DNA from: Gloeocapsopsis crepidinum LEGE 06123 | Lineage (GTDB): Bacteria > Cyanobacteriota > Cyanobacteriia > Cyanobacteriales > Chroococcidiopsidaceae | Reading direction: 5' to 3' | Assembly: GCF_015207655.1 (NCBI RefSeq) | Contig: NZ_JADEWN010000011.1 | Location: forward strand, 1-64,000 | DNA: 64,000 bases | Part shown: positions 32,920-59,452 of the stretch, one piece after another | How positions within the stretch are numbered: the first letter of the stretch is position 1 | How the letters are laid out: every line of letters starts with the position of its first letter | The notes under the pieces: model-generated | Told to the model about the DNA's origin: nothing | Database searches by the model: none | Seen by the model: only the letters and a program-made list of their open reading frames with translations | Program-made: the position numbers and the translations under genes

Positions 32920-34362
32920 CTATTCTGGTTGAGCATCTGGAGATTGAGTTGGTGTATCTAAACTATCACCAGTTTGCGGTTCTCCAGTTGCTTCCGTTGG
33001 GGGTGTAGGGGAAGCAGGTAGTGTTGGAACTACAATTGATGGTGCTTCCTCTGTCGGGGAAGGTTCCGATGGAGATGGGGATTCACTAGCAGGCTGTGAT
33101 GTATCTGCTGGAGAAGGCGATTCGGGTGATGCATCTGGGACAGGAGATTCAGTAGGAGATGGTGCTTCTACTGGTGTTGTTGATTCTTCTGGTTCAACTC
33201 GGTTACGCGGACGCCAACGAAAAGGCGCTGGTTCTTCTGGGGGTGTCGTTGCTTCGGGTTGTGACGATGGCGTCATTTCAGTATCGTTTTCACCAGTTTT
33301 TTGAATATTACTTGGTGGAACGATTGCAGGTGCCGTTTGTTGAGGACTATCATCTTCAGATAACACATTAGCAACAGCAACCGCAGCCACACCCGCGATC
33401 GCAGCGGCTCCAATACCGAGTACAATTCCAGATAACCCCCGTTTACGCTGAGGGACACCCCGTGGAGGTTCTATTGATTGTGGCTGGGGAATTACTGCAA
33501 CTGTGGCGGCGGTGTGAGTAGGCACTGATTGAGTTTGGATATCCGCTGCTGTAAAAGATTCTGAGGGTAATAAAGCAAGCCATTCTGATACCGTTGCAGG
33601 GCGAAACTTAGCTTCTACCGCCATACCACGCATGACAGCTTGGTTAATTGCAATACTTAGTTGCGGCTGGACATCGCGGGGTGTTGGCATCGAAACGCGA
33701 TCTCGTAAACTAGCTGCAACAGGAACCGTTGCTGTTAATAAAGAATATAATGTTGCTGCTAAACCATAAACATCAGTTGCAGGAGTACGCAGTGCGTGAG
33801 GTAGATACTGTTCAATCGGTGCGTATCCTTCAGAAACAATATTAGTATGCGTTTGTGTATGACCTGGAGTAAATTCGCGGGCAATGCCGAAATCAATTAA
33901 AACAACTTCCTGCGTGCTTTGGCGTAAAATAATATTTTGTGGTTTAACGTCTCGATGTAATAAATTATTTTTATGTACTACTTGTAAAGCTGCCGCGATC
34001 TGGCGAATATAGTGAATTGCTGTTGCTTCTGAAAGTGGATTATTAGGAAAAACAACTTGATCTAATGTTTGACCAGGAACGTAGTCCATCACCATATAAG
34101 GTAATGTGTCTTCTATAAAAAAGTCGCTCACACGTACAATATTGGGATGAACACAAGTCGCTAATCTGCGGGCTTCATCTTGAAATTGCCGATAGAAACT
34201 GACATATTCAGGATGCTGTCGCAGTTCCTCGTTGATCGTTTTAATAACGACAACTTGACCTAAGTACTGGTGAGTCGCTGTAAATGTAATCCCAAAGCCA
34301 CCGCGTCCAATTTCTTGATCTAGGGTATATTTCCCTCGTTGCAATTTTTTTCCTACTAGCAT
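32920..34362 (-). CDS. Membrane-anchored Ser/Thr protein kinase
   Basis: Hanks-type kinase of 480 residues. It has a glycine loop GRGGFG (19-24), Lys41 in VVIKT, the catalytic loop HRDVKPQN (136-143) and DFG (157-159). A single membrane helix at about 311-334 is followed by a Pro/Ser/Glu/Thr-rich extracytoplasmic tail of some 140 residues without a recognisable sensor domain. ATG 34362 with GGGAGG upstream is preferred to a TTG two codons earlier. Substrates are unknown. A PP2C phosphatase with similar membrane anchoring is encoded at 53.5 kb. Confidence 0.9.
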   Translation of the reverse strand: MLVGKKLQRGKYTLDQEIGRGGFGITFTATHQYLGQVVVIKTINEELRQHPEYVSFYRQFQDEARRLATCVHPNIVRVSDFFIEDTLPYMVMDYVPGQTLDQVVFPNNPLSEATAIHYIRQIAAALQVVHKNNLLHRDVKPQNIILRQSTQEVVLIDFGIAREFTPGHTQTHTNIVSEGYAPIEQYLPHALRTPATDVYGLAATLYSLLTATVPVAASLRDRVSMPTPRDVQPQLSIAINQAVMRGMAVEAKFRPATVSEWLALLPSESFTAADIQTQSVPTHTAATVAVIPQPQSIEPPRGVPQRKRGLSGIVLGIGAAAIAGVAAVAVANVLSEDDSPQQTAPAIVPPSNIQKTGENDTEMTPSSQPEATTPPEEPAPFRWRPRNRVEPEESTTPVEAPSPTESPVPDASPESPSPADTSQPASESPSPSEPSPTEEAPSIVVPTLPASPTPPTEATGEPQTGDSLDTPTQSPDAQPE

Positions 34363-34423
34363 AGTCAAGCCTCCCCACCGAACGATAAAGTATAAATACC
34401 GACTTCTACTTTATCGCTCCTCC

Positions 34424-53455: not shown

Positions 53456-55732
53456 ATGCAAAATGAAGCAGCAAGGCTCCAATGTCCAAACGAACACTGC
53501 AAAGCTGCCAATAATGAAAGTGATAAGTATTGCCAGCAATGCGGTACATTTATACCTAAACTCTACCTGTGGGCAGTAGGATCGGGTATTGAAGAGTATC
53601 GAGTTGGAGAAATTGCCGCTGAGCGGTATTTGCTGAAAAGTAAGCGACTATTTCTTGACACCAAGCCAGGCTTACCACCGGAAACACAGCAGTATGAAAT
53701 TACGACCGCAACAAAACCCTATTTAAGGTTAATTCCCTACCGCCTTCAGATTCCTCAAGTATATGGTTTTTTGCCAGGACAGGCTAATTGTGACATATTC
53801 TTGTTAGAAGCGCCGGTTTATTCTCAAGCAACACCTCTGGCAGGACAATTGCTACCAACGCTATATGATGCTTGGCAAGATGCAACATCACTACGACAAT
53901 TACATTGGCTATGGCAAATTGCGCAATTGTGGCAACCTCTCAGCAGTGAAGGAGTCGTGTCTAGTTTACTGGATCTACAGCTACTGCGTGTGGAAGGCTC
54001 TTTGGTACGATTATTACAACTGCGAGCAGATCAGGATTCTCAACCAACCATAGCCGAATTAGGTCAGTTATGGCTAGAGTTAGTAGACCAAGCACGACCA
54101 AATATTGTTGAGTTTCTCAATCAATTATGCTGTTCTATGTTGAAGGGAGTCTTAAGTACAGATGCTCTTGTGGCAGCATTGGATCGAGGTATTGCCGAAC
54201 TAGGGCGATCGCAAGCTCGAAAATTAGTCATTAGCACTTACACAGATCCTGGACCTACTCGGCAACGCAATGAAGATGCATGTTACCCTGCCAGTGGTAA
54301 TACAATAACATCACCAAAACCAGCAGTAGTGATAGTTTGTGATGGAATCGGTGGTCATGAAGGAGGTAATGTTGCTTCGCAGTTGGCAGTAGATGTATTA
54401 CAACAAGTCAAACAACTGCCATTAGATGATATCAACTTAGATGCCACAGCACTTACTAACGACTTAGAACGTTTTGTCCGACTTGCTAATGATCGCATTA
54501 GCCAGCGCAACGATAACGAACATCGCTTTGGTCGTCAGCGTATGGGAACTACACTAGTTATGGCAGTAGAGCGTGCGCATGAAATGTATATTACGCACGT
54601 AGGAGACAGTCGCGCTTACTGGATTACTCGCACAGGTTGCCATCAGTTGACCTTAGATGATGATGTGGCTTCTCGTGAGGTACGTTTGGGCTATTCACTT
54701 TATCGCAATGCTTTAGCACAAGCATCGTCTGGTTCTTTGGTACAAGCTCTAGGAATGAGTTCTTCAACAGCATTACATCCAACTGTACAACGGTTTGTAC
54801 TTGATGAAGACTGTATTTTTTTGCTATGTTCTGATGGTTTAAGCGACTACGATCGCGTAGAAGAGTATTGGGATACCGCAATTTTACCTGCAATCAATGG
54901 CAATATTCAGGAAGCAGATGCCGTTGCACGATTAGTCGAAATTGGTAACACGCAAAATGGACACGATAATGTTACTGTTGCGCTTGTAGGTTGTAAAGTT
55001 GAATACTCTGAGCCAGCGATACCGCTATCTATTACTTTATTTGAGGATGTTGTTCATTTTCAGGAGCGCGACAACACAACAAAAGCGATCGCATATCGTA
55101 CAGAACAAGATGCTACAGTCAATCTTACCCCTTCAAGTTCCGATAAATTGCGACAATCGCACTCAATTAAACGTCTCTTGCTACCGATGTTACTCGGAGC
55201 TATCTTGCTGTTGACGGGTGGAGGATTGCTTGCTTATTTTTTATTAGGACTTAATCGCACAAAGCAACCACTAAATTACCCAACAGTGCCATCCCCAGTC
55301 GCATTACCCACAGAACCACCGATAACTCAATCTGTTGCAGCTAGCACGCTATCAGTTGGTACTTTAGTACAAATTAATCGCCAAATTGATCTTGAGCAAA
55401 ATCCAAGTGCGATCGCCGCTTCCACCTCACAATCTCAAATTGCCCAAGTTCCTACAAACGGAATCTTGAAAGTAACTAGTAGAAAAGAAAACCTTCAACA
55501 AGGAGATCTACTCAGGCTAAAATTTCTTTGCGTTAGTGATAATACCGCAGAAATCGACGTCAGCCCCAACTCTAGGCAATTACAGCAAAATACAACTTCC
55601 CCCTTGATTCAATTAGGACAAGAAGGATGGATTCATCAAACAACACTGCTACCGAGTGTTGAAAAAACTCTAGGTCAAACAAAAAGCAATTCTTGCCCTG
55701 TTTCAACTAACCCAACAACGTCCACTCCTTAA
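53456..55732 (+). CDS. PP2C phosphatase with zinc ribbon and membrane helix
   Basis: 758 residues. Zinc ribbon with Cys 10, 15, 26 and 29 at the N terminus. A region of about 30-255 without recognised family follows (kinase-like or effector-like). The PP2C catalytic domain spans about 258-510 with TRQRNEDA, VCDGIGGHEGGN, HVGDSRAYW, LCSDGLSDYD and GHDNVTVALV. A membrane helix near 575-597 and a C-terminal segment complete it. Likely a partner of Ser/Thr kinases such as the one at 32.9 kb. Metal-binding aspartates are all present. It starts at ATG 53456. Confidence 0.85.
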   Translation: MQNEAARLQCPNEHCKAANNESDKYCQQCGTFIPKLYLWAVGSGIEEYRVGEIAAERYLLKSKRLFLDTKPGLPPETQQYEITTATKPYLRLIPYRLQIPQVYGFLPGQANCDIFLLEAPVYSQATPLAGQLLPTLYDAWQDATSLRQLHWLWQIAQLWQPLSSEGVVSSLLDLQLLRVEGSLVRLLQLRADQDSQPTIAELGQLWLELVDQARPNIVEFLNQLCCSMLKGVLSTDALVAALDRGIAELGRSQARKLVISTYTDPGPTRQRNEDACYPASGNTITSPKPAVVIVCDGIGGHEGGNVASQLAVDVLQQVKQLPLDDINLDATALTNDLERFVRLANDRISQRNDNEHRFGRQRMGTTLVMAVERAHEMYITHVGDSRAYWITRTGCHQLTLDDDVASREVRLGYSLYRNALAQASSGSLVQALGMSSSTALHPTVQRFVLDEDCIFLLCSDGLSDYDRVEEYWDTAILPAINGNIQEADAVARLVEIGNTQNGHDNVTVALVGCKVEYSEPAIPLSITLFEDVVHFQERDNTTKAIAYRTEQDATVNLTPSSSDKLRQSHSIKRLLLPMLLGAILLLTGGGLLAYFLLGLNRTKQPLNYPTVPSPVALPTEPPITQSVAASTLSVGTLVQINRQIDLEQNPSAIAASTSQSQIAQVPTNGILKVTSRKENLQQGDLLRLKFLCVSDNTAEIDVSPNSRQLQQNTTSPLIQLGQEGWIHQTTLLPSVEKTLGQTKSNSCPVSTNPTTSTP

Positions 55733-56404: not shown

Positions 56405-56464
56405 GAAGCAAGTGTAGCTAGACATACCAGCAGTTTTCTGTCAATGTATTTCAGGAGTTCTACC

Positions 56465-57109
56465 ATGGCACAAGAATTCAATCCAGCGCAAGATGAGAGT
56501 CAATATACTCCTTCACCAGCGCAATTGGATTTATTAGAAGCACTTTTATCATCAGAAAATGCTACCTATCCATGGAATCCTGCAGATCCAGAAGCAGCGA
56601 TTTATTTTGAAGAACAAGATCAACTTGCGATTGAATCATTGTCAGAAGAAGAAATTAAAAGACGTTCGCAACACTTTTACTCAGAGCTAGAGCAAGTTTG
56701 GTATAAAGTAACACCCAAGAGGAATAATTTTCCTAACGTTGGCTGTAAGCGAGATTGGCAACTCCACTTCACTGCCTTCGTGCCTCAAAGTTGGCTAGAA
56801 GCGATCGCTTGTCAAGCCCAACAAGTTTGCCATACTCAAAGTCCGCTAGCAGAAAAATTGGTAGACTGCGTTCGTGGTTTACTCCCAAGTTTAGTTGAAG
56901 AAGATTTGCTAGTACTAGCTCGCCCTTTCGCATCTGCTACACGCAACGCAAAGCAAGAATCTGAAAATGTTATTAGTTACGTGCAACAGCATAAGTGGGA
57001 CGAGTTGTCAGAAATTGAACAAGCAAAAGCAAGTTTGGCGATCGCCCGTTACGCTTTAGCACAAACGAAACTAGCACACAGTCCTTATACCAATGGACAG
57101 CAACATTAA
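56465..57109 (+). CDS. Conserved cyanobacterial hypothetical protein
   Basis: 214 residues from ATG 56465 with AGGAG upstream; a longer frame lacks a ribosome site. Largely helical and acidic: PSPAQLDLLEALLSSENATY, PEAAIYFEEQDQL, and GLLPSLVEEDLLVLARPFAS. No family is recognised with certainty. It is preceded by a structured leader, which suggests regulated expression. Confidence 0.6.
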   Translation: MAQEFNPAQDESQYTPSPAQLDLLEALLSSENATYPWNPADPEAAIYFEEQDQLAIESLSEEEIKRRSQHFYSELEQVWYKVTPKRNNFPNVGCKRDWQLHFTAFVPQSWLEAIACQAQQVCHTQSPLAEKLVDCVRGLLPSLVEEDLLVLARPFASATRNAKQESENVISYVQQHKWDELSEIEQAKASLAIARYALAQTKLAHSPYTNGQQH

Positions 57110-57175: not shown

Positions 57176-58531
57176 TTACGAGCGTTTTCCAAACCGAGTA
57201 GCAAAGTTTTGCGATCGCGTTGGTGAAAGTACCCGCGCCTTTAATATTGCTGCTGTTAAAAATGCATACGAAACAACACCAACAACTGCTAGAAGTAAAC
57301 CACTAAGAAGTCCTGTAGTATTCCACAACGCATGAAGTACCGCAGCGCTCAAATACCCTGTTCCTAGAATTTGCCAGCGCTTACGTGGCTTGAGCACGCT
57401 TAAGCCAATGAAATAGCCAAAATAGCCGCTGTAAGCCATATGTCCAGCTATTGATCCTAATATTCGAGGAATCAATAGTTGGAAACCAACAAGTTCACCC
57501 ACACCACCCTGATCGGCGACACTGCGAGTAATTTCTGGAACATATTGCCTCAGTGTTTCTACCAAAGTAAAGCTCATTGCGGAAGCTGTACCTAGTAAGA
57601 TTCCGTCTAACGGTTCTGCAATACCAATGCGTTCTCGCCACGGAGATTGCAAACGTCTTCCGATGATGTAAGCCCAAAGTACTGGTAACGCTTTAAGCAG
57701 TTCTTCCATCAACCCAGCACCAAAAAACATCCGTATCAATAGTTCAGGGAAACTTACGGATTCAGCAGTTAAAGGAATCTGACCAGGAAGTAGTCTACGA
57801 AAAACAAAAATAAATAACGGTAAAATAGGACTTAGTAAAATTAGAAGAGAAGCGATTGCGACTCCTAAAATTGCCCACCAAGGCTTACGCTTACCACAAA
57901 GCTGATAAATGAAGTAATACGCAGCACCCGCAAGGTAGATTGCAACAAGTATCTGATTAAAATATGCTGTTTCAGGTCTGCCTACCGTGGCAAACATCAA
58001 AACAACAAAGATAACCGTTAGTACTCCTGGAATGAGATATGCCTTACTTGTTAAGTCCTTTGCCGTAGTTGCAATGGGAAATAGCTGAGTAAAACTGACT
58101 GAGTGCTCTGAGGATGACGTCTCAATGAGTTGCGGTGTTTCTTCTGGTGCAGATTGTAGTGTGTGTTGTATGTGAGTTGTATACTCAAAAACAAATTCAG
58201 CACCGTTATATCCCAGCGTAATGCGATCGCCTGCGCGTAACTCCTGACATCGCTCCAAACGACGCCCATTGACGTAAGTACCATTAGCACTATTCAAGTC
58301 ACAGACAAGCCAACGTCGCTGAATGCCACTATTCAACATTGGTCGGAAAACTACATGACGGCGAGATACCATGCCATAAATACTAGAATCTAGTATGATT
58401 TGACAACTATGGTCGCGCCCAACAACAACCTCTTGAGTTCTAGAGAGGGGATAGCGGCGATCAATATCTGTTTCCCCTACACTATTACGAGGTAATTGCT
58501 GCAAAAATCCCTCAGTGTCTTGTCCGGTCAT
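57176..58531 (-). CDS. FHA-domain PrsW family intramembrane protease
   Basis: 451 residues. The N-terminal FHA domain (about 30-110: GRDHSC at 38-43, SRRH at 56-59, LNSANGTYVN at 79-88) binds phospho-threonine. The C-terminal half has several membrane helices and PrsW-type glutamic protease elements: MEELLKALP (Glu276/277), AGHMAYSG (His364) and AAVLHALWNT (His400). PrsW cleaves anti-sigma factors in Bacillus. Phosphorylation-triggered membrane proteolysis is inferred and fits the Ser/Thr kinase and PP2C encoded nearby. Convergent with the gene at 56465. Confidence 0.85.
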   Translation of the reverse strand: MTGQDTEGFLQQLPRNSVGETDIDRRYPLSRTQEVVVGRDHSCQIILDSSIYGMVSRRHVVFRPMLNSGIQRRWLVCDLNSANGTYVNGRRLERCQELRAGDRITLGYNGAEFVFEYTTHIQHTLQSAPEETPQLIETSSSEHSVSFTQLFPIATTAKDLTSKAYLIPGVLTVIFVVLMFATVGRPETAYFNQILVAIYLAGAAYYFIYQLCGKRKPWWAILGVAIASLLILLSPILPLFIFVFRRLLPGQIPLTAESVSFPELLIRMFFGAGLMEELLKALPVLWAYIIGRRLQSPWRERIGIAEPLDGILLGTASAMSFTLVETLRQYVPEITRSVADQGGVGELVGFQLLIPRILGSIAGHMAYSGYFGYFIGLSVLKPRKRWQILGTGYLSAAVLHALWNTTGLLSGLLLAVVGVVSYAFLTAAILKARVLSPTRSQNFATRFGKRS

Positions 58532-58666: not shown

Positions 58667-58876
58667 CTACTTACCGTTTGCAGCATTGGTATCACGCACC
58701 GCTGCATAAAACAAAAAGCCAGTTAGAGGAATACTCATTGCTAGAATAACACTTGTCACAGTTACTCCTAAATCTGGCTGCCCAGAAGAAAGTTCAAACA
58801 CTGAACCTACTGCCGCGATCGCTGCTATACATGAGCCACCAAGAAACAGCCCACTTTTAGGGGTCATTGTATTCAT
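58667..58876 (-). CDS. Small membrane protein
   Basis: 69 residues with two hydrophobic helices (about 9-30 and 37-58: LGVTVTSVILAMSIPLTGFL). No family recognised; reminiscent of small cyanobacterial membrane proteins. It lies 12 bp downstream of def on the same strand, so the two are probably cotranscribed. Confidence 0.6.
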   Translation of the reverse strand: MNTMTPKSGLFLGGSCIAAIAAVGSVFELSSGQPDLGVTVTSVILAMSIPLTGFLFYAAVRDTNAANGK

Positions 58877-58888
58877 TTTGTAATTTTC

Positions 58889-59452
58889 CTAAGCGAATGG
58901 TTTAACAGCTTTTGCTGAGAAGCCGTGCTTTGATAGCTCAGCATTCAGTGCGATTTGATTTTCTACTCGATCAACAAATAATACTCCATTGAGGTGATCG
59001 ATTTCATGTTGAATGCAACGCGCTAGTAACTCATTAGCTTGTAATGTCCGAGGACGCCCGTTTTCATCCTTGTAGCTAATCTCAACAACTTGAGGACGTA
59101 CAACATCCAAATAAACGCCAGGAATACTCAAACATCCCTCTTGCATCACGCACAGTTCTGGGCTTAGTTTTTTAATCGCTGGATTCACTAAAATTAGTGG
59201 TGGATTAGCTGGGTTGTCTGGTTCGCAATCGATAACAATGACTTGTTTTTGGAGTGCTACTTGCGGTGCTGCTAAACCAATACCATCTGCACTGTACATT
59301 GTTTGCAGCATTTCTTTAGCAAGTTCTCGGAGTTCTTGATCGACTTTCGCAACTCGCTTAGCTGACTGGCGTAAAGCGCGATCGCCTAAGTATCGAATAT
59401 CTAACGGAGGATTTTTTAATTTTTGTTTTTCAACAACAACTTCAGAAGGCAT
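58889..59452 (-). CDS. def: Peptide deformylase
   Basis: Removes the N-formyl group from nascent proteins. The 187-residue protein has all three motifs: GIGLAAPQV (57-65), EGCLS (105-109, metal Cys107) and QHEIDH (148-153, two metal His). Starts at ATG 59452. Standard bacterial class I enzyme, upstream of a small membrane protein gene. Confidence 0.95.
   Translation of the reverse strand: MPSEVVVEKQKLKNPPLDIRYLGDRALRQSAKRVAKVDQELRELAKEMLQTMYSADGIGLAAPQVALQKQVIVIDCEPDNPANPPLILVNPAIKKLSPELCVMQEGCLSIPGVYLDVVRPQVVEISYKDENGRPRTLQANELLARCIQHEIDHLNGVLFVDRVENQIALNAELSKHGFSAKAVKPFA

Follow-up and report, generated by a model that had tools for sequence, protein, structure and literature searches.

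PrsW (YpdC) of Bacillus subtilis, the site-1 protease of RsiW, belongs to the same Pfam family as the cyanobacterial protein described here, and the available part of its description (PMC12943098) gives the family motifs EExxK, FxxxE, H, and HxxxD/N as E75E76xxK79, F110xxxE114, H138, and H175xxxD/N179. The B. subtilis enzyme is an independent membrane protease acting on an anti-sigma factor, whereas the cyanobacterial protein, FHA-PrsW, adds an N-terminal FHA domain and a conserved juxtamembrane segment. Fusions of PrsW with FHA, PilZ, cyclic-nucleotide-binding, and Zn-ribbon domains are described by Zhang et al. 2012, together with the idea of a 'signalling peptidase' (accessible text of PMC3482391); FHA-PrsW fusions and this idea have thus been known since 2012. 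In that text, however, the fusion occupies one sentence, cyanobacteria appear only in the phylum list of PrsW, and neither residue conservation nor a locus is given. In the case of Leptospira LIC_20173, PrsW is likewise joined to a cytoplasmic signal-reading domain and is predicted to be active, like FHA-PrsW, but the PilZ-like domain is C-terminal, while the FHA domain of FHA-PrsW is N-terminal (portion of PMC12943098 at hand). Bdellovibrio DgcB (FHA-GGDEF) provides an example of an enzyme-fused FHA domain acting as a switch with a self-peptide as its ligand; DgcB is a cyclase whose ligand is its N-terminal tail, whereas FHA-PrsW is a putative protease whose N-terminal tail is poorly conserved, with 25% identity (sections of PMC6733907). 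In the open-licence PMC literature, no study of cyanobacterial FHA-PrsW and no experimental FHA-PrsW study was found by title. What is new here is how constant the residues are, how widely the protein occurs, the description of its locus, and, next to the membrane, a conserved T-x-x-D that might serve as a self-ligand.

The features discussed below lie in the window, the whole 64,000-nucleotide stretch of Gloeocapsopsis crepidinum LEGE 06123 that was analysed:

57176..58531, minus strand: FHA-PrsW gene, an ORF with an ATG start encoding 451 residues, with FHA and PrsW Pfam matches
58211..58429, minus strand: FHA domain (PF00498), residues 35-107
58028..58099, minus strand: conserved juxtamembrane segment, residues 145-168, a candidate self-ligand T-x-x-D or a mere helix cap
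57248..57886, minus strand: PrsW intramembrane protease domain (PF13367), residues 216-428
58667..58876, minus strand: small protein of 69 residues with two helices predicted by eye, between def and FHA-PrsW
58889..59452, minus strand: peptide deformylase (def), upstream syntenic neighbour
56444..57109, plus strand: U221, convergent neighbour with no Pfam family
53456..55732, plus strand: PP2C phosphatase, convergent syntenic gene
32920-34368: Hanks kinase, about 23 kb from FHA-PrsW

On the 451-residue protein, the PF00498 profile scores 64.1 bits against a cut-off of 20.7 (E 1.7e-17), and the PF13367 profile scores 118.4 bits against a cut-off of 23.5 (E 3.7e-34), covering profile positions 1-195 of 196. 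Both lie in one ORF, which bears out the initial annotation of an FHA domain fused to a PrsW protease. Six-frame searches of the genome recover the same coordinates for both domains, and FHA-PrsW accounts for the sole PF13367 match at E<=0.001 in the whole genome of 5.67 Mb. Both domains also share one ORF in the 81 full-length copies, which come from 80 genome handles and include that of the window, and in the best 80 of 416 loci; with so many genomes carrying this arrangement, the fusion cannot be dismissed as a single artefact. FHA-PrsW is a real, intact, and widely kept cyanobacterial protein. The copy in L131 (G007) is broken into two ORFs by a frameshift or an assembly error.

In the sample of 291 Cyanobacteriia genomes, 250 match the FHA-PrsW protein at E<=0.001. 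The match rows, split by hand into strong and weak, comprise about 173 genomes at full strength (E 1e-46 or less) and 77 weak ones (E 1e-24 or more), so that the architecture, which the initial annotation proposed to look for in other cyanobacteria, recurs in about 173/291. PF13367 itself occurs in 199/291 of these genomes, and some genomes therefore contain other PrsW proteins only. The carriers include G013 and G047, which we take to be two Gloeobacter genomes, and G030, presumably Thermosynechococcus elongatus BP-1. In the 117-genome sample of the phylum, the other classes gave no full-strength match, the best reaching 8.7e-12 with the listed places within the FHA range. The best 80 of 416 loci are, by title, all cyanobacterial save one in a 'Tatlockia' bin (L137), with 66% identity, which is probably mis-binned. 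In addition, families f4, f12, f15, f22, f30, and most of f23 are without a full-strength match in the 291-genome sample, which indicates that the protein is dispensable. A mobile-element origin was considered and set aside, the plasmids yielding one FHA-only record, the phages two partial matches, and the viral contigs one short match. A defence role was rejected as well: at E<=0.01, no PADLOC match was obtained for FHA-PrsW, CHAT-FHA (a protein of related loci described below), or U221, and PP2C gave one weak match. In a tree of the 81 proteins, the f24 (Gloeobacter-like) sequences are not monophyletic once the tree is rooted, and those of f33 and f36 lie dispersed; nothing is drawn from this tree.

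Conservation was assessed on 161 sequences, namely 81 full-length aligned proteins from 21 families (80 fetched regions and the window) and 80 contig-scan loci. The fetched regions were hand-chosen from the listed match rows, mainly strong ones, for family coverage, and the contig-scan loci are the best-scoring 80 of 416, mostly Nostocales; some genomes are possibly in both sets, and three paralogues were excluded and treated separately. Because of the hand selection, the restriction to the best 80 of 416, and relatedness, the 161 sequences do not count as independent, and relatives that match weakly or lack the FHA domain are represented too sparsely. Within this set, G38, R39, S56, R57, H59, N83, G84, T85, and N88 of the FHA domain are invariant in 161/161 (81 chosen and the best 80 of 416). 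These nine positions cover the R, S, H, and N-G-T-x-x-N residues characteristic of FHA phosphopeptide sites. Simultaneously, E276, E277, K280, F321, E325, H364, and H400 of the PrsW domain are invariant in the same 161/161 (81 chosen, best 80 of 416), and position 404 holds N in 159 of these 161 sequences and D in the other 2. All four PrsW motifs are therefore present as E276E277xxK280, F321xxxE325, H364, and H400xxxN404, and their residues match the motif positions of B. subtilis PrsW (available part of PMC12943098).

The mean identity of the 80 other full-length members to the window protein is 0.25 in the tail (residues 1-25), 0.52 in the FHA region (26-118), 0.11 in the linker (119-144), 0.60 in the juxtamembrane segment (145-167), 0.63 in the first two helices (168-215), 0.64 in the PrsW region (216-428), and 0.74 in the C-tail (429-451). 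The site residues are thus much more strongly conserved than the sequence around them, as identity averages only 52% in the FHA region and 11% in the linker. Loss of the FHA site or of the protease glutamates was named in the initial annotation as the observation that would speak against its proposal; the 161 sequences keep both, and the altered FHA domains are found in the three paralogues, which retain the protease residues and carry R39S in L126 and NPI instead of NGT in L118 and L119. The constancy of both sites across 161/161 argues that their joint function matters. L118 and L119 are second FHA-PrsW copies in 4 kb loci of G115 and G211 and offer a natural contrast for FHA function. An apparent loss of FHA in homologues was also followed up and rejected: eight rows match only from about residue 129-143, and the six of these that were fetched (L086, L087, L088, L089, L092, and L093; the remaining two rows are G084 and G282) all contain FHA, so that the truncated matches arise from the alignment.

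With loop limits set by hand from the hydropathy profile, the summed Lys/Arg per loop is 0.2, 2.4, 1.3, 3.3, 0.3, 2.8, 0.0, and 4.7, an alternation of low and high values. By the positive-inside rule, this predicts eight helices with both ends cytoplasmic, which would place the FHA domain on the same side of the membrane as the kinases. The AlphaFold model of the full-length protein reaches a mean pLDDT of 71.8, and its fold-match lists are filled by FHA domains. The modelled FHA domain matches FHA domains of known structure, some of which were solved in complex with phosphopeptides, and the top 16 rows have Z values from 15 to 16.7; the highest of these belongs to Chlamydia CT664 (3gqs_B; Z 16.7, rmsd 1.5, 100 aligned), and DgcB is matched with Z 15.5, rmsd 2.0, and 98 aligned.

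Around the gene, the same-strand upstream neighbours are def in 36/81 loci and the small protein in 41/81, both together in 36/81, and an FtsX gene lies farther upstream in 14/81. Downstream and convergent are U221 in 34/81, CHAT-FHA in 31/81, PP2C in 27/81, and ndhM in 21/81, with U221 and PP2C each spread over 7 families; the remaining neighbour clusters reach 14/81 or fewer. In 47/81 loci, the fetched flanks contain none of U221, CHAT-FHA, and PP2C, although some flanks end at contig ends, and FHA-PrsW thus does not need these genes nearby. All three are present in 67/80 of the contig-scan loci, which are the best 80 of 416. In Anabaenopsis L135 and Nodularia L165, U221 and CHAT-FHA are gone and PP2C lies within 211 bp. 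Across genomes, the presence of CHAT-FHA, the small protein, and PP2C tracks FHA-PrsW only loosely; the synteny is thus old rather than obligatory. Among 20 sequences of U221, Y42, W86, P114, D154, R160, A163, W185, L188, and A201 are invariant.

CHAT-FHA, a caspase-like domain with a C-terminal FHA domain, is encoded for example at L045:9355-10995 and L091:9240-10910, both on the minus strand, and at 29 other loci. In L091, the Pfam matches are 1.5e-24 for CHAT and 3e-11 for the C-terminal FHA domain. The His and Cys are kept in 31/31, the FHA Arg is changed in 5/31, and Tyr replaces the Asn before GT in a ten-sequence consensus. In the genome studied here, CHAT-FHA was not found at E<=1e-40, and none lies between PP2C and U221 in the window. 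As an obligate partner it was rejected, since matches at E<=1e-40 occur in 155/291 genomes (with other CHAT proteins behind part of the rows), and these include genomes that have no FHA-PrsW, for instance most of those in f23. In the open-licence PMC literature, no paper containing both 'CHAT domain' and 'FHA domain' was found.

The small protein combines two stretches of hydrophobic residues with a conserved FELSSGxPxLG loop, and the product of 58667-58876 has no Pfam or NCBIfam match. It occurs in 254/291 genomes of the class, as a single copy in all rows but one, and f12 genomes of 1.6-1.9 Mb are among the listed ones that lack it. The small protein, of 64-69 residues, is a possible substrate of FHA-PrsW; a dedicated substrate role was rejected because the 254 genomes include families such as f4 that are without FHA-PrsW.

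Both signalling genes that the initial annotation offered as partners are real; their partnership with FHA-PrsW fares less well. The genome contains 21 Pkinase matches over the cut-off, besides 4 PP2C_2 and 10 FHA matches, so that the kinase at 32.9 kb, one of 21 and some 23 kb away, is uninformative as a partner and was set aside. PP2C at 53.5 kb is syntenic as described, but its family (paralogues included) is found in 89/116 genomes at E<=1e-70, also where FHA-PrsW is absent; its dedication to FHA-PrsW was therefore dropped, and the link is only positional. The PP2C protein itself carries cysteine pairs near its N-terminus and, ahead of the phosphatase domain, a long stretch without a Pfam name, possibly, as a guess by eye, a degenerate kinase-like part. 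The initial annotation also read the enzyme as site-1-like, which would point to an anti-sigma substrate, and proposed to look for linked anti-sigma factors; Pfam gave no match to a sigma or anti-sigma family for those neighbours that were scanned.

FHA-controlled intramembrane proteolysis is the most likely mechanism of FHA-PrsW and somewhat more probable than not. A Hanks-type kinase would phosphorylate a threonine on a membrane-protein substrate, an adaptor, or the protease itself. The FHA domain, predicted to be cytoplasmic, would then bind the phosphothreonine and either deliver its target to the active site within the membrane, putatively E276, E277, K280, E325, H364, and H400, or unlock that site, and a PP2C phosphatase may reset the switch. 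Phosphorylation as the trigger, as the initial annotation had suggested, is what we infer from this arrangement, and catalysis, phosphothreonine binding, gating, and the direction of the signal are to be read in the same conditional sense. In favour of gated proteolysis are the two strong Pfam matches, the 161/161 constancy (81 chosen and the best 80 of 416) with its contrast to the altered-FHA paralogues, the predicted topology, the fold matches, and the PP2C gene in the conserved block. Against it are these altered-FHA paralogues, the PP2C relatives in genomes without FHA-PrsW, the families without FHA-PrsW, the 47/81 loci whose flanks have none of the three convergent genes, and the fact that the PrsW of known role cuts an anti-sigma factor, with no such factor found among the neighbours scanned.

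Gated proteolysis has to be weighed against two other readings of the same protein. The PrsW fold might be devoid of protease activity and serve as a scaffold, like APH-1 or the translocon subunit that the model resembles. A separate model of residues 160-451 (pLDDT 78.2) has its best VIA match in APH-1 of gamma-secretase (5a63_C; Z 13.0, rmsd 4.8, 220 aligned), followed by 7tm3 chain 6 (Z 12.7, rmsd 4.5, 216 aligned). Neither APH-1 nor 7tm3 chain 6 is known to be a protease itself. The top five VIA rows are all APH-1 or translocon chains with Z 10.2-13.0, at the caution line of the tool for helical proteins, and the first rows of other kinds have Z 9.5 and 7.4. Foldseek gave no match for this model at E<=0.001, and CAAX proteases are absent from the listed VIA rows, which excludes nothing. 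PrsW and APH-1 are grouped in one superfamily (accessible text of PMC4602095). However, the PrsW motif residues are kept in 161/161 (with D for N404 in 2), including positions at which B. subtilis PrsW is sensitive to mutation (available part of PMC12943098), and an inactive scaffold is very unlikely. Alternatively, the protease may be constitutive, with the FHA domain only tethering it to some phosphorylated assembly, such as one that acts in division or at the envelope, for quality control in which no phospho-switch takes part. The upstream synteny with def and, farther away, FtsX fits such tethering, as does the lack of a linked regulator among the neighbours scanned. Nevertheless, the neighbouring genes have housekeeping functions and their combination varies between loci, and tethering is considered distinctly improbable.

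Within gated proteolysis, the FHA domain may recognise a phosphorylated threonine, either in the same chain or in a sister copy, with T156 as the best candidate, and thereby open or close the protease, by analogy with the Bdellovibrio cyclase DgcB, which is switched by its own phosphorylated tail. The juxtamembrane segment, which comes after the variable linker and leads into the first helix, follows the pattern [ST]x[ST]QLFPIxSTG[KR]DLxxKAYLxP, with variants from the 81 proteins, and averages 60% identity to the window protein beside the 11% linker. Among the 161 sequences (81 chosen, best 80 of 416), position 156 is Thr in 149 and position 159 is Asp in 142, together forming T-x-x-D. A Thr with an acidic residue at +3 is a plausible FHA ligand, and Asp at +3 suits some FHA domains. 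The FHA domain of DgcB is among the fold matches, and the ligand of DgcB is a self-peptide in which the +3 position is important (sections of PMC6733907). On the other side, Thr is missing at position 156 in 12/161 (the same 81 chosen and best 80 of 416), and S/T-x-x-D is an ordinary capping box at the start of helices, where the model places a low-confidence helix. Self-gating, which forms part of the case for FHA-controlled proteolysis, is accordingly a tentative and rather doubtful version of it.

To our knowledge, cyanobacterial Hanks-type kinases have few known outputs, and outside Bacillus and Clostridium little is known of what triggers PrsW enzymes. FHA-PrsW physically joins a reader of kinase signals and a PrsW protease, in a genome with 21 Hanks-type kinase matches, and a direct test thereby becomes possible. 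In the widest and unlikely form of the proposal, FHA-PrsW would be an ancient cyanobacterial switch, from Gloeobacter-like genomes onward, that turns kinase signals into cutting via its own juxtamembrane phosphothreonine and shares one locus with CHAT-FHA and PP2C in many lineages. If this were true, these lineages would possess a single locus for phosphorylation-controlled proteolysis, with FHA-PrsW as the membrane arm and CHAT-FHA as the cytosolic arm.
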